Source of the DNA: Clostridiaceae bacterium
Lineage (GTDB): Bacteria > Bacillota > Clostridia > Acetivibrionales > DTU013
Length of the DNA: 45,182 bases
Direction: 5' to 3'
Assembly (NCBI GenBank): GCA_012519745.1
Contig: JAAYPO010000079.1
Coordinates: forward strand, 1-45,182
The translations under genes and the position numbers were made by a program. Below are positions 6,482 through 34,669 of the stretch, piece by piece. The notes under the pieces are model-generated. The model made no database searches. It was not told where the DNA came from and worked only from the letters and a program-made list of their open reading frames with translations. Position 1 is the stretch's first letter, and the number at the start of each line of letters is the position of its first letter.

Positions 6482-7339
6482 TCAGCCTTCGATTTCTGTA
6501 ATTATTTTTTTCAGTGCTTCGGCTGCCATGGCAAACTGTTTCGGTCCGCCGTCCTCCATCTTGTTTACATGTGAACGCGGCTCCAGATCGGCATAGCCGA
6601 CAAAATCCCAGAGGTGAGGCTCTATGGAAAGGAACCCCTCATAACCGCTGTCGTATAATGCCTTCAGTATTTCCCTGACCTTCCCGTCTCCGTATCCTGC
6701 CGGGACCACATGGTGGTCGGAATAGACGGCATCCTTGATATGCATGTATTTGATATGTTTCTTCAATAATTCATATGCTTCGGGGTAAGTCTCGACATCG
6801 CATTGCACAAAGTTGGCCGGATCGAAAATCGCCGCCGTATAGTCACAGTTCATTGTTTCCAGCAGGTCCAGACATCTTTCGGGAGTATCTCCATAGATGT
6901 CCTTCTCGTTTTCATGCAGGAGAGTGATCCCTGTCCCTGAGGCAGCCTGTATAAATTGTGAGAACCTGTCCATGACCTGGCTGCGGTGATCCGCCGGATC
7001 CGCACCTGTCGGGGGATAGAAGCTGAAAACCCTGATATATCTGGTGTCAAGTATGTCTGCCAGCTCCAGCGTATGCCTGAACATCTCCAGGTGGGGCACG
7101 AAATCATCCTCTATGCCGATCTTTCCAAAGGGCGAGCCAATGGCGGAAATGCGAAAGCCCCTTGCATCAAGCTGCTTCTTGATGTCCCTGGCTTCTCTGG
7201 CGGTATATTGTACGATACTTCTTCCATTTACTCCGCGCATTTCGATATACATGATGTCATTCTGCTCAAGCACATCCATTTGGGTAGTCAGATTTGGAGA
7301 AATTTCATCGCCGAATGCAGATAAAATAAACCTGCTCAT
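6482..7339 (-). CDS. Sugar phosphate isomerase/epimerase (xylose isomerase-like TIM barrel)
   Basis: A 285-residue protein of the AP endonuclease 2 / IolE-like TIM-barrel superfamily. Likely divalent-metal ligands are the Glu in LLHENEKDIYG, the Asp in AAIFDPANF, the His in YMHIKDAV and the Glu in FLSIEPHLWDF, in the order usual for this fold. The start at 7339 (MSRFILSAFG) is chosen because GGAGGTGCC lies just before it; the upstream ATG at 7360 would place that ribosome binding site inside the gene. It is first in the operon with two Gfo/Idh dehydrogenases, a combination typical of inositol or uncommon-sugar catabolism. The specific substrate is unknown. Confidence 0.88.
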   Translation of the reverse strand: MSRFILSAFGDEISPNLTTQMDVLEQNDIMYIEMRGVNGRSIVQYTAREARDIKKQLDARGFRISAIGSPFGKIGIEDDFVPHLEMFRHTLELADILDTRYIRVFSFYPPTGADPADHRSQVMDRFSQFIQAASGTGITLLHENEKDIYGDTPERCLDLLETMNCDYTAAIFDPANFVQCDVETYPEAYELLKKHIKYMHIKDAVYSDHHVVPAGYGDGKVREILKALYDSGYEGFLSIEPHLWDFVGYADLEPRSHVNKMEDGGPKQFAMAAEALKKIITEIEG

Positions 7340-7419
7340 ATGATCGGCACCTCCTGACATGAGTAATATGAACGCCTTTCAGATTCTATTTTATATTAAG
7401 TGTAAAAAAATGCAATGTA

Positions 7420-7454
7420 AAAATTAAAGGACATATGAGAATTTCATATGTCCT
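7420..7454 (-). terminator. Intrinsic terminator of the VanW gene
   Basis: An 11-bp perfect stem, AGGACATATGA (7428-7438) with its complement at 7444-7454. Read on the minus strand it is followed by TTTAATTTTT. It lies 20 bases after the VanW stop codon and before the start of the downstream epimerase operon. Confidence 0.85.
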
Positions 7455-7473
7455 TCACTCATTGAATTGTGAT

Positions 7474-9360
7474 TCATGGATTCTCCGGTGGTTCCTGTAC
7501 TGTTGTCGGTTCATCCGCGGCAGGTGTCTGCTGTGCTGCCGGCAGTTCCGGAGCAGGCGGTTCAGATGGCTGTTCTGCTGTATCCTGGCCATCTGGAGCC
7601 TCGGTAACGTCGGAGACGTCGGGAACGTCAGTTGTGCCGGCAGTGCCGGGAGTACCCGGTGAGTCAGCTGCGTCCGCAGCACCCGGTTTTGTTTCAGCTG
7701 CAGCGGCAGTTGATGTGTTTATGTTTTTCATTTCCGCTGCAAGGCCCGGAGTGGTCGAACCGTCGGGATTGAGTATCCCCACCAGTATCTCTTCGGTGCA
7801 GGGCTTGTAACGGCTTGTATGGAGCTTTGTCTGAGAAACGACTTCATTGCCCATCTTTATTGTTTTATATGTTTCGACGACGAAACCATCGGTGCCGTAC
7901 TGGTATTTTTTCGTAGTACCCACCGGGAGATTGGGATCATCTACATATTTTGTTTCATAGGGGGTCCGGCTCAACACCTTGCTGCTGATATGGACGGTCT
8001 TGTCAGGTGTTGTATTGGTACCTTTGAATACAACATGTACATTCTTATCGTCGAGCCAGCTTTCGATCATGAGGGGCCATTGAGTAGAATTCACAAAGCG
8101 AAAGTCCGTGCCGCCGTAGTAAGCGGTAGCATCCTGGCCCAAGGGGACATATGTCACAATGAAGGTGTGGCTCTTCCTTTCATTGACCTGCAGGTCGGAT
8201 TGGAGAACAGCGGTGTAGAGCGTGCTGACTGCCTGACAGATACCGCCGCCGATGCCATCCTCCACTCGTCCGTTGATGTATATATGAGCTTCCTTGTAGC
8301 CGGTTTTTGCATTTCTCGAACCGACAATATCGTTGAATGAAAATTCTTCACCCGGCAGAAGTATGGTGCCGTTAAACTTGTTTACGGACAGGCCGATATT
8401 ATGGGCCCTGTTTATTTCATTTTTGGTGACTGTTTTGAAAGGGGTGCTCACCCTGGCCAACTCGTCTCTGAACAGCATGGAGACAGCTGTCTCGGTAGTC
8501 ACTGCCGGAGGTGTCAGGGTCACCGGGATTTCCCGGTCCCTATCTTCGGTTTTGTTATGCTCTTCGACTATTTTTTCAAGACGAGACCGGTCTATCTTTT
8601 TGCCGACTTTATGAGGTACGATCCTCAGAGTACCGTCCTCCCTCTCAAAGAAGGCATCCTCCGGTTCGCTGTTTAGCTGGGCATATATATCCTGAGCATC
8701 GAAAGGAGTGGGATGCGTCACCGTGACCTCGGGTTCGGCCAGACCTCCCCTGTTATTTTTTATCATGCCCATAACAAGAGCTTTAACATCTTCTTTGCTC
8801 ACACTCTCCCCATGCCTGCCGGATCTGATGACTACGCGTTCGTTAGTGACGAGGAGAGCTCCTTCTTTGACTTCGATGAACGCTTCCTTGCAGAAATTGT
8901 TAACAAAGCTGTCGATCTTCTCTTCATTATAGCTTTGGGGCATATTGATCACGACCCCGCTGATACCTGCCTGTGCGATATCATACAGCCTTTTGAACAC
9001 ATTGCCGGTACGTCCTATTGAATAAGCAGCTTCCACTGCGGCGTCGGTATCGTAATCTACTCCCAACTCAGGGTAAGTTGCTTCCACTTCGGCAGACGGG
9101 CTTCTAAGCATGATCTTAAGCTCCGCTGCAGGGATAGTGTATTGGGCATCCAGGTATTGGAGCATATCGTGCCTGCCCATGCCCGAAACATCCAGCCTGT
9201 CTACATATACACCCTCGTATGCTGTAGTGCTTTGCAAAAGCACATAGGAAAAAATGGCAGCCGACAACAGCATTATGGCTGTAAATATCAGCAATGCAGC
9301 AATAATAATACGTTTTTTGCTTTGTGGCTTGGGCAAACTGGACTGTACCTCTGGCTCCAT
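7474..9360 (-). CDS. VanW-family membrane-anchored cell-wall protein
   Basis: A 628-residue protein. Residues 1-15 are cytoplasmic, and a single membrane helix spans about residues 17-42 (IIIAALLIFTAIMLLSAAIF). Two tandem YoaR-like/PG_binding_4-type modules occupy about residues 50-300. A VanW domain follows at about 305-440, with the signature FSFNDIVGSRNAKTGY and DGIGGGICQAVSTLYTAVL, then a beta-rich G5-like region at about 450-540. The tail (about 555-628) is Ala/Pro/Thr/Glu-rich, low-complexity and probably surface-exposed. VanW-type proteins are tied to the cell wall in Firmicutes, but the biochemical activity is not established. It is monocistronic with its own terminator and divergent from the Nudix gene. 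Confidence 0.88.
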   Translation of the reverse strand: MEPEVQSSLPKPQSKKRIIIAALLIFTAIMLLSAAIFSYVLLQSTTAYEGVYVDRLDVSGMGRHDMLQYLDAQYTIPAAELKIMLRSPSAEVEATYPELGVDYDTDAAVEAAYSIGRTGNVFKRLYDIAQAGISGVVINMPQSYNEEKIDSFVNNFCKEAFIEVKEGALLVTNERVVIRSGRHGESVSKEDVKALVMGMIKNNRGGLAEPEVTVTHPTPFDAQDIYAQLNSEPEDAFFEREDGTLRIVPHKVGKKIDRSRLEKIVEEHNKTEDRDREIPVTLTPPAVTTETAVSMLFRDELARVSTPFKTVTKNEINRAHNIGLSVNKFNGTILLPGEEFSFNDIVGSRNAKTGYKEAHIYINGRVEDGIGGGICQAVSTLYTAVLQSDLQVNERKSHTFIVTYVPLGQDATAYYGGTDFRFVNSTQWPLMIESWLDDKNVHVVFKGTNTTPDKTVHISSKVLSRTPYETKYVDDPNLPVGTTKKYQYGTDGFVVETYKTIKMGNEVVSQTKLHTSRYKPCTEEILVGILNPDGSTTPGLAAEMKNINTSTAAAAETKPGAADAADSPGTPGTAGTTDVPDVSDVTEAPDGQDTAEQPSEPPAPELPAAQQTPAADEPTTVQEPPENP

Positions 9361-17893: not shown

Positions 17894-18793
17894 ATGAGCG
17901 ATCTTAAGGTAGGGGATATCGTTGCAAGAAAATCCTACGGCTATGATATTTTCTTTAAGGTGGTAGATATAACGGGTACCGGCAGCGAGAGGATCATCAC
18001 TTTAAAGGGGATAAGCTACAGGATTGAGGCTGATGCCCCGGAGTCAGACCTTGAGGTGCAGCCGGAGAGCAGAGTAAGGGAATACAGGGACAAATGCTGC
18101 AGGAAGGCGAAGCAGCACAGCGCAGACAAGAGGCTGACACCTGGGTATGCATACTATTCAGCGCCTTATTACAGAGGATTAAGAAAAAAAGCATATTATA
18201 GAGATACTGCAAATGATACGGCCGAAAAAATCAAAAGGCCGGGAAAGGTACTCCATTTAGATGGAGATAAGGATTATCTGGAGAACTGTATGGCAGAATA
18301 TAAAAAGCTCGGCATAGAGGTCATCGGGGAATATGTACCTGAAAAGGAACAGCCTCAAAGAGTGGCGCAGCTGCTTGCCGAGCATAGACCTGATATACTG
18401 GTACTTACCGGTCACGACGGATTTATCAAGGGGCATGACAGCTACAACAATCTGGCATCATACAGGACGTCAAGATATTTTATAGATGCTGTAAAGACAG
18501 CCAGAAGGTTTAATAGTGATATGGATGGATTAGTCATATTCGCAGGTGCATGTCAGTCGCTTTACAGAGAAATAATCAATGCAGGTGCCAACTTCGCCAG
18601 TGCTCCCTTCAGAGATCTGATACATGCCCTTGATCCCGTCAGAGTATGCCAAAAAATAGCTTTTACCGGTGTTGACAGCATACTGGATGCAGAGGATGTA
18701 ATAAAAAACACTATTACAGGGAAAACTGGTATCGGTGGGGTACAAACCAGAGGAAAATACCGGGAGGGTTTTCCTGCAGAACCTTACCAATAA
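17894..18793 (+). CDS. yabG: Sporulation-specific protease YabG
   Basis: A 299-residue cysteine-type protease of the YabG family that processes coat proteins in late sporulation. The N-terminal SH3-like strand region (VGDIVARKSYGYDIFFKV) is followed by the family core: LTGHDGFIKGHDSYNN (candidate catalytic His) and LVIFAGACQSLYREI (candidate catalytic Cys). GGTGGTGTATAA precedes the ATG. As in Bacillus, veg is directly downstream. An ACATATAATGATA stretch about 55 bases upstream could be the -10 of a mother-cell sigma factor, but I cannot assign it with confidence. Confidence 0.95.
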   Translation: MSDLKVGDIVARKSYGYDIFFKVVDITGTGSERIITLKGISYRIEADAPESDLEVQPESRVREYRDKCCRKAKQHSADKRLTPGYAYYSAPYYRGLRKKAYYRDTANDTAEKIKRPGKVLHLDGDKDYLENCMAEYKKLGIEVIGEYVPEKEQPQRVAQLLAEHRPDILVLTGHDGFIKGHDSYNNLASYRTSRYFIDAVKTARRFNSDMDGLVIFAGACQSLYREIINAGANFASAPFRDLIHALDPVRVCQKIAFTGVDSILDAEDVIKNTITGKTGIGGVQTRGKYREGFPAEPYQ

Positions 18794-19366: not shown

Positions 19367-20932
19367 ATGTCTCTTGAATTGATGAAAGAGGCCGTAAGGC
19401 TTAATCGACCAATAGGTGAGGATTCCACACAGACCATAGTTGAAAATGATATCATAGTGCCGGATATAAAGCCGGACATTGCGCACATATTGCTGCTGGA
19501 CGGTGATGCCTGGATAAGCGGTGCTGAGACCGCCGCAGGCAAGGTACTGATCAATGGCACGGTCAGATACAAGATACTGTATGTTTCCGATGATCCGGAT
19601 CAGCCGGTAAAAAGCATAACGACTTCTACCGGATTCCAGTATCCCATGGATATACCCGAGACCAGACAGGGTATGCAGTGCAGCGTAAAGTGTGATATCG
19701 AGCATATGGAATATGAAATACTCAACAGCAGAAAGGTCAATGTAAAGGCCATCGTCAGTCTGTTCGCAAAAGTGTCGGAACAGCAGGAACAATATGTTAC
19801 AAGAGATTTCGACGGCTCTGACGGGATACAGGTCCAAAAAAGCCCCATCACTATCAACTCATATATCGGCGACGGCAAAGAGGAATGTCCTGTCAGGGAA
19901 ATAGTCGATATACCTGCAGGTAAACCGGCAATACTGGAGATATTGAGAAACGATGTCAAAATATCCGGCAGGGAATATAAAGCGGGGGATGACAAAATCA
20001 TTGTCAAGGGCGAGCTGAATGTATCCACACTGTACATCGGCGATGATGAGAGCCGGAGTCTGCAGTTCATGGAGCATGAGATCCCCTTTGTGCAGCTCAT
20101 TGATATGCCCGGAGCTGATGAATCCTGCTCCTGTGATGTGGATATAACACTGGGGGAGGTATCTTTCGAGGCTGACGAGGATAGCGACGGTGAGCTCAGG
20201 AAGTTAAAATGCGAAGCGGATCTTGGCATATACGCCCAAAGCTATGGAAGAAAGGATATTGAGATCGTTGATGATGCGTACAATCCGAACTCCAGAGTCA
20301 GCATAGAGAAGGAGCAGCTCGTGTTTGAAGAGCTTGTCTATGAGGATGAAAGCCAGATTACCCTCAAAGAAAATATCGAACTGGAGCAGGACGCTCCTGA
20401 CATCTCAGAATTGTTCAATATTGTTGGCAAGCTGACTCTTTCCTCCAGCGAAATAACAGACGACCGTATAACTGTGGAAGGTGCGGCGATATGTAATGTG
20501 CTGTATCTTGCCGATAACGGGGAGAAACCGGTCTACTGTGTCGAGCAGGAGATCCCCTTCAGGCAGGTGCTGGATGCTAAAGGCATCCGTGCGGGAATGT
20601 CCCTGGATGTGGAAATGGATATAGACCACTACAGCTACAGCATACTCAATTCAAGAGATGTTGAGGTGCGGTTGCTCATCGGTTTAAAGAGCAGGGTCGG
20701 CAAACAGCTTACCGTGCCGGTGATAGTGAGAGCGACGGAGCAGCCGCCTGATGATAAAAGATTTGAAAGACAATCCAGTGTTACCATTTACTTCACCCAG
20801 CCCGAGGATACCCTTTGGAAGATAGCAAAGCGGTACTATACGACAGTCAGCGAGCTTGTAAGCAGCAATGGTATCGATGAAAACGAAGCGCTGGTGCCGG
20901 GGAGCCAGATCATCATAATGAAGAAGGCTTGA
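19367..20932 (+). CDS. sipL: SipL-like protein: three DUF3794 (SPOCS) domains and C-terminal LysM
   Basis: A 521-residue protein. Three DUF3794/SPOCS units are visible at about residues 25-130, 175-285 and 345-445, each with a KILYV/STLYI/NVLYL-type strand, a central EIPF or equivalent and a DIEHMEYEILNSRKV-type end (clear in the first and third). Residues about 468-520 form a LysM domain (YFTQPEDTLWKIAKRYYTTV through LVPGSQIIIM). In Clostridioides difficile SipL binds SpoIVA through LysM and anchors the coat to the forespore. Its location between veg and ispE, as in other Clostridia, supports orthology. GGGGGGAGG is a strong ribosome binding site. Expression is presumably mother-cell specific. 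Confidence 0.88.
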   Translation: MSLELMKEAVRLNRPIGEDSTQTIVENDIIVPDIKPDIAHILLLDGDAWISGAETAAGKVLINGTVRYKILYVSDDPDQPVKSITTSTGFQYPMDIPETRQGMQCSVKCDIEHMEYEILNSRKVNVKAIVSLFAKVSEQQEQYVTRDFDGSDGIQVQKSPITINSYIGDGKEECPVREIVDIPAGKPAILEILRNDVKISGREYKAGDDKIIVKGELNVSTLYIGDDESRSLQFMEHEIPFVQLIDMPGADESCSCDVDITLGEVSFEADEDSDGELRKLKCEADLGIYAQSYGRKDIEIVDDAYNPNSRVSIEKEQLVFEELVYEDESQITLKENIELEQDAPDISELFNIVGKLTLSSSEITDDRITVEGAAICNVLYLADNGEKPVYCVEQEIPFRQVLDAKGIRAGMSLDVEMDIDHYSYSILNSRDVEVRLLIGLKSRVGKQLTVPVIVRATEQPPDDKRFERQSSVTIYFTQPEDTLWKIAKRYYTTVSELVSSNGIDENEALVPGSQIIIMKKA

Positions 20933-23049: not shown

Positions 23050-23079
23050 ATAAACATTTGAAAATATTTAACGTATAAT
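23050..23079 (+). promoter_or_regulatory. Candidate promoter of the AAA-PspA operon (ECF- or sigma-A-type)
   Basis: Two overlapping readings fit. ATAAAC (23050-23055), 16 bases, CGTA (23072-23075) resembles the extracytoplasmic-function sigma-W type (consensus TGAAAC-N16-CGTA). TAAACA (23051-23056), 17 bases, TATAAT (23074-23079) fits sigma-A. The start codon lies about 70 bases further on. Envelope-stress control would match the downstream pspA gene. Confidence 0.45.
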
Positions 23080-23154: not shown

Positions 23155-24789
23155 GTGTCATCCGGAGAATTTTGGTACGATAGTTTTCTAAGCAAATACA
23201 AATCAGGGATCTCCCACGAGTTTCTATTCTACTTCAATGTCCGTGATCTGGTGGACAACTACAGATATATGGACAGGTACATATACGAGGAATTCATCAA
23301 GAAGAGAGGCTTTGGGATCGTTGCATTTTACGACATTTCAAGAGGTCTGACCTTTTTTGACGCGGGAATGGAAAAGGAGTTCAATATAATCACCTCCAAT
23401 GAAGCTGCCAATCTCATGAACGCGATGCCGTCCAGGCTTTTTCCGCATATCGATAAGGCGCTGAAGAACACAAAGATGGTACTCTTTATCCATCATGTGG
23501 AAAAGATCATACCTGCGGGTGATATAGCCAGCATGACTTTAGAGGAGAGGATATCTCTTGTATGGATCTGCGAGTGGTCTGTCAGCCCAAAGATATCTTC
23601 CGTCGGCAGCTGTATCATGCTGCTGGCTGACAATCTGGCTGATGTGAGCCGGGAGCTGCTCAAATCCTCTTACAGGATAGAGCCGGTCTTCGTAGGGCTG
23701 CCCGATGAGGCACAGCGCAAGGAATATATCGATTACCTGCTCAAGGATGACAGTGTGAAGACCGAAATAACGGCGGACGAATTTGCCAAGCTTTCATCCG
23801 GTCTGAGCAAGAAATCAATAAAAGATATCAAGCTGAAATCCGAAGCGGAGGATATACCCATAAGCTTCGAGTTCATAAAGGAAAAGAAGCATTCCGTACT
23901 GCAGAAGGAATACGGGGATGTGCTGGAATTCATATACCCCGAACTGGACTTTGAGAACATAGGCGGTATGGAAAAGGCAAAGAACTACCTGCTAAAGAAT
24001 ATCGTAAGGCCCATTATGAAGGGCGACCTCAGACGAGTTCCCATGGGCATATTGCTGTGCGGCCCTTCCGGTACGGGAAAGACACTTCTTGTCAATGCTC
24101 TGGCAAAGGCCAGCGGCTTTAATTGTGTGAAGATAGATATGTCAAGGATCCTTGGACAATATGTGGGCGAAAGCGAGAAGAACTTTAAGAAATGTCTCCT
24201 CGGCGCTCAATCGCAGCACCCGGTCATAGTGTTCGTGGATGAATTGGATACTGCTTTCCGCAGAGGAGACAGCGGAGACAGCGGTGTGAGCAGGAATATT
24301 TTCAGTGAATTTTTACAATTCACCGGTAATACAAATAATAGGGGCAAGGTTATTTTCATTGCAGCGACCAACAGACCGGACCTGATAGATCCGGCGCTTA
24401 AGAGAGCGGGAAGATTCGACAAGAAGATACCGATACTGTTGCCGGATGCCGGGGAGCGGGCGGATATTTTCAGGATCATGGTGAAGAAGTACGGCTTTGA
24501 TACGGATGTAGAGGATTTCATGCCCTTTGCAGAGGAAACGGAAAACTATACCGGTGCAGAGATAGAGACCGTCGTCAGGAAAGCCTATGAACTGGCAAGC
24601 GAGGATGATATCGATGAGAGCATCCTTACGGCCGAAATAATGTCGGAGGCGATAAAGAGGTGCCGTCCCAGCACCCAGCAGGTCCAGTTCATGACGATGC
24701 TGGCCATCGATGAATGCGATGACAAGGATCTGCTGCCTGATAAGTATAAAGGGCTGCTGGACAATAAGAACCTGTCCGAGGACAGGTGA
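23155..24789 (+). CDS. AAA+ ATPase with degenerate N-terminal and intact C-terminal AAA module
   Basis: A 544-residue protein; GTG start behind AGGAGGGATAATC. The C-terminal half is a complete classical AAA module close to the FtsH/Cdc48 group: Walker A GPSGTGKT (residues 303-310), Walker B VIVFVDELD (D362, E363), sensor 1 in FIAATNRPD, the RAGRFDKKI arginine-finger region, and the YTGAEIETVVRKAYELA lid. Residues about 25-240 look like a second, worn-down AAA unit: a Walker-B-like LFIHHVEKII (about 110-119), a sensor-1-like CIMLLADNL, then PVFVGLPDEAQRKEYIDYLL and a lid-like LSKKSIKDIKLKSEA, but no Walker A. It is first in an operon with PspA and a coiled-coil membrane protein. A Vps4-like role in remodelling PspA polymers is inference. 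Confidence 0.88.
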   Translation: MSSGEFWYDSFLSKYKSGISHEFLFYFNVRDLVDNYRYMDRYIYEEFIKKRGFGIVAFYDISRGLTFFDAGMEKEFNIITSNEAANLMNAMPSRLFPHIDKALKNTKMVLFIHHVEKIIPAGDIASMTLEERISLVWICEWSVSPKISSVGSCIMLLADNLADVSRELLKSSYRIEPVFVGLPDEAQRKEYIDYLLKDDSVKTEITADEFAKLSSGLSKKSIKDIKLKSEAEDIPISFEFIKEKKHSVLQKEYGDVLEFIYPELDFENIGGMEKAKNYLLKNIVRPIMKGDLRRVPMGILLCGPSGTGKTLLVNALAKASGFNCVKIDMSRILGQYVGESEKNFKKCLLGAQSQHPVIVFVDELDTAFRRGDSGDSGVSRNIFSEFLQFTGNTNNRGKVIFIAATNRPDLIDPALKRAGRFDKKIPILLPDAGERADIFRIMVKKYGFDTDVEDFMPFAEETENYTGAEIETVVRKAYELASEDDIDESILTAEIMSEAIKRCRPSTQQVQFMTMLAIDECDDKDLLPDKYKGLLDNKNLSEDR

Positions 24790-24798
24790 GAGCGGCAG

Positions 24799-24984
24799 AT
24801 GAACACAGAGGATCGGCAGGGCTTCAAAGTAAAACTCATATGTCAGCAAAACAGTTATGCAGCGGTATGTGCTTTAAAACATGATCGGAATAAGCAAGCC
24901 CTGCCGGTTACGGATAATTATTACAGGATAGGAGTATTGCCGGACAATAATCCTTTACATCGTGCGGCATTTATTATAAATTAA
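24799..24984 (+). CDS. Doubtful 61-residue ORF between the AAA and pspA genes
   Basis: An open frame starting 10 bases after the AAA stop, without a convincing ribosome binding site. The residue composition is mixed and I recognise no family or structural feature. It may be only the untranslated spacer of the operon. The rest of this 245-base gap contains an AT-rich stretch just before the AGGAGG site of pspA and no terminator. Confidence 0.2.
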   Translation: MNTEDRQGFKVKLICQQNSYAAVCALKHDRNKQALPVTDNYYRIGVLPDNNPLHRAAFIIN

Positions 24985-25034
24985 ATATATACAGAAATGG
25001 CGGAATGCAACAATAAATTAAGGAGGCAGTAAAT

Positions 25035-25763
25035 ATGGGTTTTTTCAGTAGACTGGGAGCTTTGATAAGAGGTTTCTTCGGCAAATTGCTGGGAGGAATG
25101 GAAGAGAATAATCCGGAATTGCTATTTGAGGATATCAAGATGCAGATAGACAGAGCCAGAAAAGAAGCGGAGCGGCAGATACTTGAGATCCAGACCAATG
25201 CTGAAATGATCAAGATCGAAATGCGGAATGCGGAAAAGAATCTCCTTACTGTAAAGGCCAGAGTCGAAGCGGCACAGAAGACCGGCGACAAGGATCTTCT
25301 GATAGAGCTGCTCATGCACGAGGAGGAATATCAGGCAACCTATGAGACCCACAAGGCCACTTATGATACCGCTATGGCCGAGGTGGCAAAGATCAGGGAG
25401 GACTATAAGATATTCGAGTCTGAAATGAGTGCCAAGCTGAATGAACTCAAGACTTTGAAATCCCAGGCGAAAATGGCTCAGCTCAGAGAGAATATAAACT
25501 CAGTGAATGCCAGATACACCTCCAGGAATAATACCGTCGGCAGTGTGAACGAGAGCATGGACAGGGCAAGAGAGCTTGTCAACAAGAAGACGGCACGGGC
25601 CAATGCAGTGGAATCCCTTGGAGACACAAATATGGACCTGAAGCTCAAGAGGCTTGACATGAACTCTGCAAGAGAGAGGGCAAGGGCAAGGGCCGAAGCG
25701 CTCCTTGGCAGTGAGCAGGGCTTTGAGGTAAAAGAAAAGGCTGAAAACAAGGTATCACAGTAG
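25035..25763 (+). CDS. pspA: PspA/IM30-family protein (ESCRT-III superfamily)
   Basis: A 242-residue, almost entirely helical coiled-coil protein. Residues 1-22 form an amphipathic membrane-binding helix (MGFFSRLGALIRGFFGKLLG). The long hairpin then starts with ENNPELLFEDIKMQIDRARK, has ADxEMI-like and QAxxAxxL-like heptads, and ends with a MNSARERARARAEALLG helix. PspA/Vipp1 proteins polymerise on damaged membranes and share the ESCRT-III fold. AAGGAGGCAGTAAAT gives a strong start. It lies between an AAA+ ATPase and a membrane-anchored coiled-coil protein, all on one strand. The C-terminal region after residue 180 is more Arg/Lys-rich than in Escherichia coli PspA. Confidence 0.92.
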   Translation: MGFFSRLGALIRGFFGKLLGGMEENNPELLFEDIKMQIDRARKEAERQILEIQTNAEMIKIEMRNAEKNLLTVKARVEAAQKTGDKDLLIELLMHEEEYQATYETHKATYDTAMAEVAKIREDYKIFESEMSAKLNELKTLKSQAKMAQLRENINSVNARYTSRNNTVGSVNESMDRARELVNKKTARANAVESLGDTNMDLKLKRLDMNSARERARARAEALLGSEQGFEVKEKAENKVSQ

Positions 25764-25825
25764 ATAGCGGAACAATTCGGTGCTACCGGCAATGAGTTAT
25801 TATTTGGGAATGGTGGTTTGAGCTT

Positions 25826-26641
25826 ATGAGAGCAAGAATGTTTTTAAGTGCTTTATTCAAGTTGAGAAATATAGGGATATTGGCTGCGGCTTTGATTTTG
25901 GCATCTCTTTTAAGCGATCCGACTGCACTTCCAAATATGTTCGGTGTAGATGGTGCACTGCCTGATTCGCTTACCATTACGGGAAGCATTGCGGTTTATA
26001 TTGCATTTGTCATTCAGACACTTCTGAGTAAAAAGTTCCAAACCGAATTCAACCAGAAGGAAAAGTTCAGGAACATAAAGGAGCTGAACAGGCTGGCCAA
26101 CAGGCTTTCATCAGAGGCCAGAAGAAACTCCAACAACACTTATATGCAGAAGCTCAGGAAGGTAATAAACGACAAGAACGAGATTTTTACATCCTACTCA
26201 ACAGGAGAGCACAGCTATTTGAAGGAAAGGATAGTGGAGCAGACACTGAATCTTGTGATAGCCTATCTCAAGCTGTTCAACAACTTCTGTATCAGGAGCC
26301 GCGAGCTTAGCAGCGTTGATGTGGGAGCTGTGTCGGCCAGGATAAACAACAATACAAGGAAGCTCAGCTTTGCAAAGGACGCAAGGATGGCAGAGGACGT
26401 ACGAAAAATCATAGAGATGGATGAGAAGCTGATAGGCAGGCTGAAGGATGAGAAGAAGGAGCTGGAGAGGATAAGTGCAAAGCTGGATTACATGGAAAGC
26501 ACGGTAAACATGTTCAAGCACCAGATCATGTCCAGCATCGAAAACGAGGATATGCTCGAGCAGCTGGAGACAGCGGTAAACGAGGCCGAAGCCCTTGATG
26601 CTGTGCTTGAGGACAGGCGCAGGAACAAGCTGAGGATGTAG
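25826..26641 (+). CDS. Membrane-anchored coiled-coil protein of unknown family, partner of PspA
   Basis: A 271-residue protein with two N-terminal hydrophobic segments (about residues 13-30 and 48-68) and then about 200 mostly helical, highly charged residues, with coiled-coil character from about 185 (MAEDVRKIIEMDEKLIGRLKDEKK onward in shorter heptad blocks). I do not recognise a named domain. It follows pspA by 62 bases with a weak GGTGG ribosome binding site and is followed by a terminator-like hairpin, so it is probably the last gene of the AAA-PspA operon. A role as a membrane receptor or anchor for PspA is inference from topology and context. Confidence 0.65.
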   Translation: MRARMFLSALFKLRNIGILAAALILASLLSDPTALPNMFGVDGALPDSLTITGSIAVYIAFVIQTLLSKKFQTEFNQKEKFRNIKELNRLANRLSSEARRNSNNTYMQKLRKVINDKNEIFTSYSTGEHSYLKERIVEQTLNLVIAYLKLFNNFCIRSRELSSVDVGAVSARINNNTRKLSFAKDARMAEDVRKIIEMDEKLIGRLKDEKKELERISAKLDYMESTVNMFKHQIMSSIENEDMLEQLETAVNEAEALDAVLEDRRRNKLRM

Positions 26642-26670
26642 GCTCTATCTACGATTTTATGTAAAAGGCA

Positions 26671-26712
26671 GGGGACGGGAAATTGTTATAAATGATTTCT
26701 CCGCCCCTTTTT
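26671..26712 (+). terminator. Probable terminator of the AAA-PspA operon
   Basis: An imperfect stem between GGGGACGGGAAA (26671-26682) and TTTCTCCGCCCC (26696-26707), followed by TTTTT. Confidence 0.7.
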
Positions 26713-27192: not shown

Positions 27193-28293
27193 ATGAGTAT
27201 CAGACTGCTTCAGTTCGGAGATCTTCATCTGGATGCCCCCTTCACATCACTTTGCGATTTTGAGGGGAGGCCTCATCAGAGGAGGCAGGATCTTAAGAGA
27301 ACACTGTCAAGGATAATCGATCTTGCACTGAGTGAAGGACCGGACATATTGCTTGTCTGCGGAGATCTATATGAGCATGCCTATACTGAAAAAAGCTCGA
27401 TAAACTTTGTATGCAGTCAGTTCGACAGGATAGCGGACATACCTGTCCTTATGATACCGGGAAACCATGATCCGCTGGTGCCCGGATCTTTTTACAGCGG
27501 GCATGCATGGCCGTCGAATGTACATATACTTGGTGCGGGAGATATGTTTGAGCATACTTCTTCACATACCAGAGTATACGGCGCAGCCGCCGGAGTGACA
27601 ACAGACCCGTCCTATATAAACATATTGATGCACCATGGGACATTGGACATGCCCTTCAGCGCCAATGCCTTTCAGCCGATATCGGGAAAGGAGATCGAAG
27701 AGCAGGGTTTCGATTACTGTGCTCTGGGACATTTCCATTCAAGGATATCCGGTCCGGGACCCGGAGGGATATGTTTTAATGCAGGCAGTCCCGAACCCCT
27801 TGGCTTTGATGAAGAGGGGGATCATGGCGTACTTTTATCCGTTATCGAAAAGGAGCGGGAGAAGAGAGCTGTCATAAGCTCAAGCTTTATCAAGCTTTGC
27901 TCAAGGAGAGCCGTCAGCCTTGAGGCCGATATAGGCGGATGTCTGAGCAATGAGCAGGCGGCGGAACTGGTGGAGGCAGAAATAAGAAAAGCCGGAAGCA
28001 GCGATGACCTTTTCAGGGTGACTTTGAAAGGACGTATTCCATCGGATATCAGAATAGATCCGGAGATCATCACGGAGCAGACAGCTGATAAGGTATTTTA
28101 CATAAAGATAATCGATGAAACTGCCCCGGACTATGACCTGGAGCAAATATCCCGCGAACAGGGACTCAGGGGCCTTTTTGTCAGAAAAATGCTTGAGAGG
28201 GCTTCAGCGGCCGGACAGGAGGAGTCCAGGCTGGTCATGCAGGCGCTCTATTACGGACTGGAGGCTATTGACGAGGGAAAGGTATGCGTATAG
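27193..28293 (+). CDS. SbcD/YhaO-like metallophosphoesterase (DNA exonuclease family)
   Basis: A 366-residue calcineurin-like phosphoesterase. Metal-binding motifs are visible in order: GDLHLDAPF (residues 9-17), LVCGDLYE, MIPGNHDPL, ILMHHGTLD and ALGHFHSR. This is the set of Mre11/SbcD and of Bacillus YhaO. The C-terminal part is a variable capping region. The stop overlaps the start of the following ATPase gene by 10 bases, so the two are translationally coupled as in sbcDC and yhaON. The pair is expected to process DNA ends or structures; which substrate is used here is unknown. Confidence 0.9.
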   Translation: MSIRLLQFGDLHLDAPFTSLCDFEGRPHQRRQDLKRTLSRIIDLALSEGPDILLVCGDLYEHAYTEKSSINFVCSQFDRIADIPVLMIPGNHDPLVPGSFYSGHAWPSNVHILGAGDMFEHTSSHTRVYGAAAGVTTDPSYINILMHHGTLDMPFSANAFQPISGKEIEEQGFDYCALGHFHSRISGPGPGGICFNAGSPEPLGFDEEGDHGVLLSVIEKEREKRAVISSSFIKLCSRRAVSLEADIGGCLSNEQAAELVEAEIRKAGSSDDLFRVTLKGRIPSDIRIDPEIITEQTADKVFYIKIIDETAPDYDLEQISREQGLRGLFVRKMLERASAAGQEESRLVMQALYYGLEAIDEGKVCV

Positions 28294-30482
28294 AAAGATT
28301 AGAGATCAATGGTTTCGGTAGAATGAGGAACCGGATTATTACTCCCGGCAGCGGACTCAATATCATCTTTGGAGCTAATGAGGCCGGAAAATCGACAGTT
28401 CAGAGATTCATCAGAGCGATGCTTTACGGGATCAGGAGCCCGCGCAGGATGTCCGGACTGCCTGTCGCACAGAAAAGGTATATGCCCTGGGATGGAGCTT
28501 CATATGGCGGTGCCATAACCTATTCTCTTGACGATGGCTCTGTATACAGGGCAGAAAGAAACTTCAATAAAAATACCGTCAGTATTTTTGACGCAAATTA
28601 TAGCGATATATCCGGGACATTCAGGCTTGGTATGGATAAGCTGCCAATGTTTGCTGACGAACACCTGGGAATAGATGAGACAACATTTATAAGGACTGCG
28701 TTTATAGGGCAGATGGAAGTCAGGATCGGCAGCAGCGGCTCGTCAGAGCTGGCGGCAAGGCTGGCCAATGCAAGAGACACTGGGGTCGAGGGACTGTCCT
28801 TCCAGAGAGCCGAGGCAGCTTTGACCAATGCACTAAAAAGCAGGATAGGTACCGATAGGACCAGGACGCAGCCGCTGGATAAGCTGGAAGCTAGGCTGAA
28901 GCAGCTCCGGCAGGACCATGACAGGCTCAGACAAAAGCAAGAGCAGCGACAGAGTCTGAAGGAAGAGCTGGCAAAGGTAAAAGACCGGCTTTCCGGTCTG
29001 GAGGCACAGGAGCAGTACCTGACAAAAGTGGCAGAGCTGATCGATACAAGAAAGAAGATCGATGCAGGTATAAAGAAGGAGGCAAGTCTCAGAGAGACCG
29101 CCGCGCTGCTGGAGGAGACGGACAGTAAGCTGGCGGAGCTGACGAAGCAGGAGAATACAGATGAGGTAAAAACGGGCCTAAGTGGTGAAATCAGTCGGGA
29201 ATCCGGACACGGCGCAGCCGGAGCAGGACATGGCCGCAGCTCCGGAAAAGTCGGGAGTCCTGCTTTTAGTTTATCTGCTGCACTGTTTTGCAGCGCCATT
29301 GCTCTGGTGTCAGTGATACTATATGTGTCATCATTGACATCAGCCGGTTGGCTGAGCTTGTCAGTGCCGCCTTACATATATGTGTTTACTATGATCATAT
29401 CTGCTGTTGCAGGAGCATATTTTCTCATCAAGAGAATGAAGCTCATATATAGCCGGACTGAAGAGGCATCTGTCGTGCTGCCGGGCGAGTGCAATGAAAA
29501 TGACCGTGATAGCGGCAGTTCCGCCAATTTGATCAGTACGGCCGATACCTCGCTGAAAACGGATGACAATGCGGCCAGGGTCGAAGCCCTTACCGCAATG
29601 AAGCGTAATGCATTGAGCAGTGCTTCTTTGATATGCGGCGTCAGAATGGAGGGTATCGAAGATGTACACAATACGTTGAGGGATATAATGGCTGAGCTGG
29701 AGGAACTAAGCGCTGGTCTGCAGCAGGGCATTGAAGCAGCCGGGAGCCTGAAGCAGCATGGAGACGGGTATTTCGTTGAAAAGGACCTGGATATGGTAAT
29801 CTATGATTCTGACATATCGAGTCTGGAGTCCACACTGAAGAATGAAATGGACAGTGTCAGGAATGAGTTTCTTAAAACGGCTCTTAGAGAAAAGTATTGT
29901 GAAGGTATGGCTGACGATGACAGGGAAAACACTTATGAATTGCAGCGTGTGGAAGAAGAAACCGTTGCGGTGAATGAAAAAATCGCGTATCTTAGAAATA
30001 AGGCCGATGCCATCAAGCTCGCTCATGAGGTCCTGCTGGAAGCCGGTGCGGAAATCAGACGAGACTTTGCACCCAGTCTGAACAGCAGGATGAGCAGCAT
30101 AATTGCAAATATGACAGGACAGAGGTATACAGACCTCAGAGGGGATGAAGGTCTTATGCTCAAGGCAGCGGCGCCGGAATACGGAGAGGTCAGGAATGTG
30201 CTTTTGTTGAGCGGCGGGACGGCAGACCAGATGTACCTTGCCATGCGGCTTGCAATGACGGACCTTTTGACATCCGGATCGGAGAGCCTGCCCCTGATAA
30301 TGGATGAGGTGTTTTCACAGTTTGATGACAACAGGACTGCTGCTGCGTTAGAATATTTACATAATGAGTATAGAGACAGCCAGATATTCATATTTACCTG
30401 CAAACAGCGGGAGGTGGAGCTGGCGAGACGGATTTACGGGGACAGAATGAATTTTGTGGAGTTGAGGCATGAGGATTCTTAA
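28284..30482 (+). CDS. SbcC/YhaN-like ABC-type ATPase with central membrane segments
   Basis: A 732-residue ATPase. The N-terminal P-loop is FGANEAGKSTVQ (about residues 30-41). C-terminal ABC signature LLSGGTADQMYLAMRL and Walker B LPLIMDEVFSQFD lie near residues 640-680, and a final HTF-like switch follows. Two coiled-coil blocks (about 180-300 and 470-590) flank a pair of hydrophobic segments at about 330-352 and 362-382, in place of the Rad50/SbcC zinc hook; I see no CxxC hook. Bacillus YhaN has a similar plan. It overlaps the upstream SbcD-like gene by 10 bases and the downstream lipoprotein gene by 14. Confidence 0.87.
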   Translation: MRIERLEINGFGRMRNRIITPGSGLNIIFGANEAGKSTVQRFIRAMLYGIRSPRRMSGLPVAQKRYMPWDGASYGGAITYSLDDGSVYRAERNFNKNTVSIFDANYSDISGTFRLGMDKLPMFADEHLGIDETTFIRTAFIGQMEVRIGSSGSSELAARLANARDTGVEGLSFQRAEAALTNALKSRIGTDRTRTQPLDKLEARLKQLRQDHDRLRQKQEQRQSLKEELAKVKDRLSGLEAQEQYLTKVAELIDTRKKIDAGIKKEASLRETAALLEETDSKLAELTKQENTDEVKTGLSGEISRESGHGAAGAGHGRSSGKVGSPAFSLSAALFCSAIALVSVILYVSSLTSAGWLSLSVPPYIYVFTMIISAVAGAYFLIKRMKLIYSRTEEASVVLPGECNENDRDSGSSANLISTADTSLKTDDNAARVEALTAMKRNALSSASLICGVRMEGIEDVHNTLRDIMAELEELSAGLQQGIEAAGSLKQHGDGYFVEKDLDMVIYDSDISSLESTLKNEMDSVRNEFLKTALREKYCEGMADDDRENTYELQRVEEETVAVNEKIAYLRNKADAIKLAHEVLLEAGAEIRRDFAPSLNSRMSSIIANMTGQRYTDLRGDEGLMLKAAAPEYGEVRNVLLLSGGTADQMYLAMRLAMTDLLTSGSESLPLIMDEVFSQFDDNRTAAALEYLHNEYRDSQIFIFTCKQREVELARRIYGDRMNFVELRHEDS

Positions 30483-32800: not shown

Positions 32801-33277
32801 TTGAAACCAAGAAAATCTGTCACAGCGGTTTTGGCGCTGCTTTTGATAGCCGTCATTTGTGCACTTGTGGGTCCTGAGACTCTATTCAGGATGAACATCG
32901 CATATGCAAAAAACAATAATGTCAGTGACGAACAGCTCCTTGCCAGGGCTATTAACGGAGAAGCCAGAGGTGAGCCTTATGAGGGCCAGGTAGCTGTCGG
33001 TGCAGTGATTTTGAACAGGGTAAAGGATCCCAACTTTCCAAATACCATAGCAGGGGTGATCTACCAGCCGGGTGCTTTCACAGCGGTGTCCGACGGACAG
33101 ATAAACGAGCCCATAGACCCAGGATCTACAGTGGTAAAGGCTGCCCGTGATGTATTGAACGGATGGGACCCCACCGATGGCTGCATTTATTACTGGAATC
33201 CTGCAACGGCTACCAGTTCATGGATCTGGAGCAGGAAGATCGTAACGAAGATCGGAAAGCACAATTTTGGAGTATGA
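32801..33277 (+). CDS. sleB: Spore cortex-lytic enzyme / cell wall hydrolase SleB (CwlJ-like fold)
   Basis: A 158-residue exported hydrolase with a TTG start behind GGGAGGGTGTATC. A signal peptide or anchor covers residues 1-32. The catalytic domain starts with ARAINGEARGEPYEGQVAVG, containing the conserved Glu of the lytic transglycosylase, and includes QPGAFTAVSDGQIN and CIYYWNPATA. It lacks the N-terminal peptidoglycan-binding domain of Bacillus SleB. The next gene is ypeB, 21 bases away, the usual partner that stabilises SleB in the dormant spore. A TATAAT-like box at 32767-32772 precedes the gene; a forespore sigma-G promoter would be expected but I cannot place it securely. Confidence 0.88.
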   Translation: MKPRKSVTAVLALLLIAVICALVGPETLFRMNIAYAKNNNVSDEQLLARAINGEARGEPYEGQVAVGAVILNRVKDPNFPNTIAGVIYQPGAFTAVSDGQINEPIDPGSTVVKAARDVLNGWDPTDGCIYYWNPATATSSWIWSRKIVTKIGKHNFGV

Positions 33278-33298: not shown

Positions 33299-34669
33299 AT
33301 GGGCGAAAAAAGAAGACTGTCTGATAAAAAAGTGTACGCAATCGTTGTCTTAGCCATCGCAGCAATATCTGCATGGGGCATCTACCAGTTCAGACATGCC
33401 GCAGATCTAAGGCAGGAGCTTGACAGCCAGTACAACAGGGCGTTCTATGAAATGGTCGGATATGTGAACAATGTGGAAACACTTCTGGCCAAATCAATGG
33501 TCAGTACTACCACCGACAGAACTGCAATCACGCTGCAGGAGGCATGGAAGCAGGCTGACCTTGCGCAGACGAACCTTGGGCAGCTGCCTGTCTCACAGCC
33601 TGTGCTGGCCAGCACGTCGAAATTCCTCAACCAGGTGGGGGATCTCAGCCTGGCCCTGGACAATCAGAACATAAAGGGCAAGCCCCTCAGTGATGAGCAG
33701 TATGGCATGGTGGAAAAGCTTTATAAGTACTCATCCTCATTAAGTGAAAAGCTCAGGGAACTTCAGGATGATCTGAATGCAGGCCGGCTGAGGTGGGGTG
33801 AGCTTGCCAGCAAGGGGACCAGACTGTTCAGCAAGACAAAGCCGGGAGAAATGATGAAAAAGTTCGAGACAGTGGGAGATAACTTCAAGGATTATCCAAC
33901 GCTGATCTACGACGGTCCGTTTTCAGACCATATGTCAACAGCTGAAGCCCGGGGCCTTACCGGGGACAAAATCAGTGTGGAGAAGGCAAAGGAAAAAGTC
34001 AGGGAGTTCCTGGGGAAGGACCGCGTCCAGGAAGTGAAGGATTCGGGCAAAAGCGATAACGGTCCTATAAAAACTTACAGCTTTCAGGTAAAGCTAAAGG
34101 ACATGCCTGAGGATCAGATGATAAACATAGCTGTCACACAAAAGGGCGGCCACATCGAGTGGATGCTCAGCAACAGGCCGGCAGGCGAATCAAAGCTTGA
34201 TATGGATAAGGCAAAAAAAGCCGGAACAAAGTTTCTGAAGGAAAAAGGCTATGAAAACATGAAGGATACCTATTACATCAAGCAGGACAACACAGCCACC
34301 ATCAATTATGCATATACACAGGATGATGTGACGATATATCCGGACCTGATCAAGCTAAAGATAGCATTGGATACAGGGGAGATAACCGGTATGGAGGCCA
34401 AGACCTACCTGTCCAACCATACCAAACGGGATATACCTGAACCCAAAATTTCCATGGAGGAGGCCAGGAAGAAGATCAACGGGAAAATGGAGGTATTGAG
34501 CTCGGGGCTTGCAATCATCCCCACTAACTACAAAAAGGAGATCTTTTGCTACGAGTTTAAAGGAAAGCTCAACGACAAGGATTTTCTGGTTTATATCAAT
34601 GCCGAAACAGGAGAAGAGGAAGACATACTGATGATAATCGATACGCCAAACGGAGTGCTTACCATGTAG
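33299..34669 (+). CDS. ypeB: Germination protein YpeB
   Basis: A 456-residue protein with one N-terminal membrane helix (about residues 13-28) and a long helical N domain (about 35-180). PepSY-like modules follow to the C terminus: strand-helix repeats around ISVEKAKEKVREFLG, LDMDKAKKAGTKFLKEKGY and ISMEEARKKINGKMEV. YpeB is required for SleB accumulation in spores, and the adjacent sleB-ypeB order is the canonical pair. GGAGGTAGGAAGCA is a strong ribosome binding site. It is convergent with the DnaC-like gene, 24 bases apart. Confidence 0.93.
   Translation: MGEKRRLSDKKVYAIVVLAIAAISAWGIYQFRHAADLRQELDSQYNRAFYEMVGYVNNVETLLAKSMVSTTTDRTAITLQEAWKQADLAQTNLGQLPVSQPVLASTSKFLNQVGDLSLALDNQNIKGKPLSDEQYGMVEKLYKYSSSLSEKLRELQDDLNAGRLRWGELASKGTRLFSKTKPGEMMKKFETVGDNFKDYPTLIYDGPFSDHMSTAEARGLTGDKISVEKAKEKVREFLGKDRVQEVKDSGKSDNGPIKTYSFQVKLKDMPEDQMINIAVTQKGGHIEWMLSNRPAGESKLDMDKAKKAGTKFLKEKGYENMKDTYYIKQDNTATINYAYTQDDVTIYPDLIKLKIALDTGEITGMEAKTYLSNHTKRDIPEPKISMEEARKKINGKMEVLSSGLAIIPTNYKKEIFCYEFKGKLNDKDFLVYINAETGEEEDILMIIDTPNGVLTM

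Follow-up and report, generated by a model that had tools for sequence, protein, structure and literature searches.

A conserved clostridial gene module of a tandem AAA ATPase, a divergent PspA and a putative membrane protein, with a PspA tail motif that follows the ATPase

The DNA stretch analyzed here (the window) is contig JAAYPO010000079.1 of assembly GCA_012519745.1 from a Clostridiaceae bacterium, positions 1 to 45,182 of the forward strand. It carries three plus-strand genes that code for an AAA ATPase of 544 amino acids (positions 23155–24789, GTG start), a PspA/IM30-family protein of 242 amino acids from a divergent subfamily (25035–25763) and a third protein of 271 amino acids with two predicted membrane helices (25826–26641; below, the two-transmembrane-helix or 2TM protein). 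Our central observation concerns a short C-terminal tail of this PspA, which follows the presence of the ATPase gene. A scan of the window placed a promoter-like site, TAAACA-N17-TATAAT, upstream of the AAA gene (23051–23079, plus strand), and a terminator-like stem-loop followed by a T run is located downstream of the third gene (26670–26712, plus strand; folding energy −20.6 kcal/mol, z −2.85). A preliminary description of this DNA had proposed that the three genes form an ESCRT-III/Vps4-like membrane remodelling module; all three reading frames and both flanking signals that it had described were recovered. It had also reported that PspB, PspC and PspF are missing. This is true of the locus, since no PspB, PspC, PspF, LiaI or band-7 partner was found among the genes neighboring the module, but not of the genome, where two PspC-domain proteins are encoded on other contigs.

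The AAA protein matched the Pfam AAA family (PF00004) with an E-value of 2e-37. Its second domain (residues 253–525; 23911–24729, plus strand), delimited by a motif scan and an alignment with Vps4, contains Walker A (residues 303–310), Walker B (359–365), the pore loop QYVGESE (335–341), sensor 1 and an arginine finger. The first four of these motifs were present in all 40 relatives scanned and the arginine finger pattern in 39. Conversely, no Walker A was found by the motif scan in residues 1–250 of any of the 40 proteins, and residues 3–250 (23161–23904, plus strand) align as a degenerate AAA domain with the D1-D2 arrangement of p97/Cdc48. An AlphaFold2 model of the protein (predicted local distance difference test score, pLDDT, 78) could be aligned with p97 D1-D2 over 484 residues (Z 26.0, root-mean-square deviation 6.0 Å), and residues 253–524 with yeast Vps4 over 266 residues (Z 24.2, 2.8 Å); in structure alignments, the second domain was about equally similar to katanin, spastin, fidgetin-like 1 and PAN as to Vps4. 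No MIT domain is present, the AAA fold beginning at about residue 3, and of the features expected of FtsH neither an HExxH motif nor a hydropathy segment above 1.6 was found. Based on the motif scan and on these alignments, the AAA protein is, as modelled, a Cdc48/p97-like tandem AAA protein with a dead first and an active second domain. It resembles Cdc48/p97, Rix7, NVL and Drg1 in the D1-D2 arrangement but differs from them in having lost Walker A from the first domain, in lacking an N-domain ahead of D1 and in scoring far below the cut-off of the CDC48 subfamily profile (170.9 bits against 802.65). The score with the NCBIfam CdvC profile was 127.9 bits (cut-off 650). It thus follows that of the initial label, “Cdc48/FtsH-type”, the first half is appropriate and the second is wrong, as the protease motif is absent, and that the protein is not a Vps4, as it has no MIT domain. 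Ycf46, another protein with a degenerate N-terminal AAA domain, was also considered as a possible counterpart.

With only the degenerate domain as the query, a search retrieved AAA cousins in other classes. Several of these, 32–40% identical, have no PspA beside them and are located on plasmids or element-like regions (loci L236, 5958–7685; L237, 7401–9203; L240, 3840–4910; L245, L246 and L247), and at L236 and L237 the gene downstream of the cousin encodes an uncharacterised helical protein, these two proteins looking alike. A role of the AAA protein in defence was considered and set aside: PADLOC returned only general AAA matches such as IetA, whose partner was not searched for further.

The PspA of the window matched the PspA_IM30 profile (PF04012) over residues 3–222 with an E-value of 1.3e-9 and 38.5 bits (cut-off 33.9). 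All 35 members of its subfamily that were compared with this profile matched it at E up to 0.1. Scores in the subfamily, about 29–47 bits, can be compared with 130 and 183 bits for the canonical PspAs that two of these genomes also encode; by sequence, then, the protein belongs to a divergent subfamily of PspA/IM30, which is the sole PspA in nearly all carrier genomes. PspA is a member of the ESCRT-III superfamily. The N-terminal helix, which had been described as amphipathic and membrane-binding, is hydrophobic and basic; its amphipathicity is modest, the hydrophobic moment of 0.43 being equalled by 12.5% of shuffled sequences and so not clearly above them. In Acetivibrio straminisolvens (genome G056, locus L138), the pspA gene is frameshifted in the assembly, possibly through a sequencing error.

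Homologues were searched for in two samples, one of 148 related genomes and one of 391 Clostridia genomes. Among the 148 relatives, the AAA protein was found in 59, the PspA subfamily in 64 (a count that includes three weak matches, probably canonical PspAs) and the third protein in 57. Of the 57 genomes that contain all three genes, 55 preserve the order AAA-pspA-third gene and the common strand; in the other two, the genes are split between contigs. Such recurrence is far beyond chance, and the adjacency in relatives on which the preliminary description had wished its proposal to be checked is therefore borne out. The third protein occurred solely in AAA-bearing genomes, and in the two AAA genomes without it a contig edge lies close to the AAA gene or to pspA. 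Of the 391 Clostridia genomes, 25 encode the AAA protein and 34 the PspA subfamily, PspA being present in 25 out of 25 AAA genomes. These data support the view that the AAA protein and PspA are a conserved pair. The module is spread across one order of Clostridia, that of Acetivibrio, Ruminiclostridium and their relatives, and also occurs in a few genomes outside it; the carriers with names are Acetivibrio, Ruminiclostridium, Pseudobacteroides, Anaerobacterium, Herbivorax and some Oscillospiraceae bins. Sequence identity over the carriers is 65–89% for the AAA protein and 31–78% for the third protein.

The AAA-linked PspAs share a distinctive C-terminus, in which the last helix is followed by a short variable linker, the heptapeptide GFEVKEK and a short variable end. 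In the window, the motif occupies PspA residues 229–235 (25719–25739, plus strand) and is a candidate docking site for the AAA protein. In the fetched set of 55 AAA-linked PspAs, 51 contain exactly GFEVKEK, three carry the variant GFEVKER or GFEVRER, and the remaining one has a frameshift; two further PspAs, from the genomes with genes on separate contigs, also end in GFEV[KR]E[KR]. Thus, the motif is found in 56 out of 56 clostridial AAA-linked PspAs with a complete C-terminus. A related tail, GRVVKER or GRVVKEK, was present in three out of three AAA-linked PspAs from a distant class (genomes G766, G845 and G865), where pspA follows the AAA gene, with a gap of 24 bp in the one genome measured (G766). 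A fourth distant genome, G880, contains the AAA-pspA pair, with pspA running off the contig. In contrast, the motif is missing from all 11 subfamily members encoded in ten AAA-less genomes, as well as from the two canonical PspAs. The chance of finding G..V[KR]E[KR] in a composition-matched tail is about 0.0005–0.0016. Since an AAA-less PspA that is 45% identical to the window protein has no tail, whereas a distant AAA-linked PspA that is only 35% identical has one, the tail, as far as sequences can tell, tracks the AAA protein and not overall PspA kinship. It is therefore likely to be the handle by which the AAA protein grips PspA, that is, a putative docking site. In one genome there are three tandem copies (GFEVKEK-NG-NFEVKEK-NEA-LEVKER), and in others there is a second, looser copy, e.g., PLDVKEK; linear docking motifs are often repeated.

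The three genes had been described as lying between one promoter and one terminator. The element TTTACA-N15-TATAAATT was found within 200 bases upstream of pspA in 42 of 55 genomes (0.01 expected in shuffled sequences), and the same upstream scan did not find it in front of the AAA gene or the third gene. The window copy, TTTACA-N15-TATAAATTA (24954–24983, plus strand), is kept across the order, and its own genome has no other exact match. A wider regulon of this promoter was sought and rejected: the pspA site was the sole close match in the genome, and other hits were as many as with a control pattern. Upstream of the AAA gene, a -10-like element (CGTATAAT and similar sequences) was seen in 30 of 50 relatives using loose patterns. 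Because of the conserved element, and because the AAA-pspA gap is never below 73 bp throughout Clostridia, pspA appears to have a conserved promoter of its own, which the third gene probably shares. Such a dedicated promoter is at odds with transcription of the three genes as a single operon; read-through from the AAA gene into pspA is possible. In most genomes, the gap between pspA and the third gene is 22–239 bp. In one genus and some other genomes this gap is about 550 bp and houses a gene of about 165 codons for an acetyltransferase-like protein, as at L087 (genome G010, 7101–7598) and other Ruminiclostridium loci.

The third protein has no match to a Pfam family. Assignment to a known family was attempted with Pfam, NCBIfam, PADLOC and PHROGs, which gave nothing or weak coiled-coil matches; relatedness to PspA was rejected (hhalign probability 0.1%), and a profile match to the DnaI N-terminus (E 8e-4) was judged to be coiled-coil noise. 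A Foldseek search against PDB gave no match at E up to 0.001. VIA-align retrieved designed helical repeats and BAR-like bundles with Z up to 16, which is little above the level of helical bundles in general. The predicted structure (pLDDT 83) is all helix; the chain has a basic N-terminus and, besides two hydrophobic segments, a long stretch of helix. Hydropathy and predicted helices agree on membrane helices at about residues 13–33 (25862–25924, plus strand) and 47–68 (25964–26029, plus strand), as expected from the preliminary description of an unrecognised protein with two membrane helices. By the positive-inside rule, the model suggests a hairpin in the membrane, the helical part probably lying in the cytoplasm. 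Taken with its distribution, the evidence supports the third protein being a conserved co-component that looks membrane-anchored. Paralogues of this protein were observed beside a pair of M23 and M50 peptidase genes resembling spoIVFA-spoIVFB, once in the window's own genome (contig C92, locus L069, 6424–7236) and in a similar pairing at L070, L071, L072 and L075.

One may ask whether the tail has the 2TM protein as its partner. The latter would then be the real PspA receptor, and the AAA protein a separate housekeeping unfoldase kept nearby by synteny. The short distance between pspA and the 2TM gene in most genomes and their probably shared promoter, set beside an AAA gene at least 73 bp away, speak for such an arrangement. 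The distant class speaks against it: G766, G845 and G865 have the tail and the AAA protein, no 2TM homologue was found in them, and the AAA-pspA gap is 24 bp in the genome measured. We consider this explanation distinctly improbable. A 2TM homologue was not found in the ten AAA-less PspA genomes either, and G880 encodes a weak homologue located away from the AAA-pspA pair. Since no homologue was found in three distant genomes and that of the fourth lies elsewhere, the AAA-PspA-tail core does not seem to require the third protein, which looks like a clostridial component.

In several genomes, the common gene order extends to acpS and sbcCD-like genes. The window encodes a SbcC/Rad50-like ATPase of 732 amino acids (28284–30482) with hydrophobic segments in the middle of the protein, which is unusual for SbcC. 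Most AAA-less PspAs are also encoded beside acpS, and in some AAA-less relatives ypeB directly adjoins the orthologous pspA (L219, 3752–5116; L220, 4380–5744; L226, 6857–8176; ypeB was confirmed by Pfam for L220 and identified by sequence likeness for the other two), which suggests that pspA, acpS and ypeB make up an old neighborhood. Sporulation-related genes also surround the module in the window: a yabG peptidase gene (17894–18793), a LysM/SafA-like gene (19367–20932), a sleB-type hydrolase gene (32801–33277) and ypeB (33299–34669). The module could thus be specific to sporulation, acting on engulfment or spore membranes, and these neighbors, the direct adjacency of ypeB and pspA in some AAA-less genomes and the location of a 2TM paralogue next to a peptidase pair like spoIVFAB all favor that explanation. 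Yet the AAA protein was not found in 366 of the 391 genomes of Clostridia, a class with many spore formers, and no sporulation promoter was identified; we regard a sporulation-specific module as highly doubtful. As most Clostridia are without the AAA protein, engulfment, which had been suggested as a setting for it, is unlikely to be its general job.

Part of this picture has been published. In gene neighborhood analyses presented in the main text of Ravi et al. (2024, mSystems, PMC11237479), PspA was reported to co-occur occasionally, in some clades (example accession AEY64321.1), with a protein that has two AAA domains, the N-terminal copy being inactive, and ATP-dependent membrane remodelling comparable to that by Snf7/VPS4 was suggested. 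This is the same pairing as here, only the second AAA domain being active in either case, so neither the AAA-PspA pairing nor its ESCRT-like interpretation is new. Neither the third gene nor the tail motif is mentioned in the main texts searched, and the same goes for the promoter dedicated to pspA and for conservation throughout the order; the joint absence of the AAA protein, the 2TM gene and the tail is likewise unmentioned in the main text of Ravi et al. (PMC11237479), whose supplement was outside this coverage. What is new here, according to the sequences compared, is a tail motif that occurs on all AAA-linked PspAs whose C-terminus is complete and is missing from the 11 AAA-less PspAs. 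We take AEY64321.1 to be a clostridial protein.

Among known systems, ESCRT-III/Vps4 and archaeal CdvB/CdvC are similar in that a polymer former of the ESCRT-III superfamily stands beside a Cdc48-like AAA protein and carries a C-terminal linear motif as the likely contact. The module differs from them in being bacterial, in having no MIT domain and in having tandem AAA domains with a degenerate first one instead of a single cassette; to our knowledge, GFEVKEK is also unlike MIM motifs. E. coli PspA-PspF and Bacillus Psp/Lia likewise combine PspA with an AAA+ partner or with membrane anchors. However, PspF belongs to a different AAA+ type and acts as a sigma-54 activator, and no PspB, PspC, PspF, LiaI or band-7 partner is present at this locus.

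We propose, with a probability of about 0.6, that the module is an ATP-driven system that remodels PspA at the cell membrane. The flexible C-terminus of PspA, ending in GFEV[KR]E[KR], would protrude from the polymer and be bound by the AAA ring. The inactive first domain may serve as a platform and substrate-binding collar, and the active second domain would thread PspA subunits through its pore, leading to their removal or exchange; this would resemble the action of Vps4 on ESCRT-III, except that no MIT domain takes part. As a component added in clostridia, the 2TM protein would tether PspA, the AAA protein or both to the membrane or recruit them there. The separate promoter for pspA and the 2TM gene would allow the levels of polymer and disassembly enzyme to be set apart. 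The ESCRT-III/ATPase-like reading advanced earlier fits the anatomy of the module (Cdc48-like tandem AAA, second domain and pore loop intact, a PspA that belongs to the ESCRT-III superfamily and carries the AAA-specific tail), although the ATPase does not qualify as a Vps4.

Several points weigh against this proposal. Adjacency alone is weaker evidence than it seems, because synteny with acpS and other genes reaches beyond the module, and the tail might bind a partner other than the AAA protein. The association of the tail with the AAA protein represents few independent evolutionary events, there being two AAA-linked lineages; the sequences are related, the tree needs few state changes, and its forks around the AAA-less PspAs are weak. 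Finally, contact with an AAA protein need not imply disassembly, since E. coli PspA regulates its AAA partner, PspF, through their contact and is no substrate of it (PMC6003685). The last point leads to the main rival explanation, namely that PspA regulates the AAA protein, the tail switching the ATPase according to the state of the membrane while the ATPase acts on other membrane or cytosolic clients. PspA controls PspF through its N-terminal part and C-terminal domain (PMC6003685), the AAA fold can work on other clients, given that its cousins on plasmids and in element-like regions lack a PspA neighbor, and separate promoters permit separate control. On the other hand, the AAA protein is, unlike PspF, a predicted Cdc48-like unfoldase with an intact pore loop, and a terminal, sometimes repeated linear motif resembles a grip site more than an allosteric surface. 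We therefore consider regulation of the ATPase by PspA rather unlikely.

PspA remodelling by the ATPase can also be cast in a more specific form, that of a bacterial ESCRT-III disassembly machine that dispenses with MIT/MIM recognition, the dead first AAA domain of a Cdc48-like ring instead reading a C-terminal PspA tag, repeated in some cases, and a dedicated two-helix protein serving as the membrane receptor; we hold this version tentatively, at slightly under even odds. If true, this would make it the first bacterial motor demonstrated for a polymer of the ESCRT-III superfamily. The module supplies a defined ATPase and a seven-residue handle open to mutation, and the PspAs that have neither the AAA partner nor the tail serve as natural controls. 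A bacterial counterpart of ESCRT-III/Vps4 would thereby become directly testable in vitro with three small proteins.

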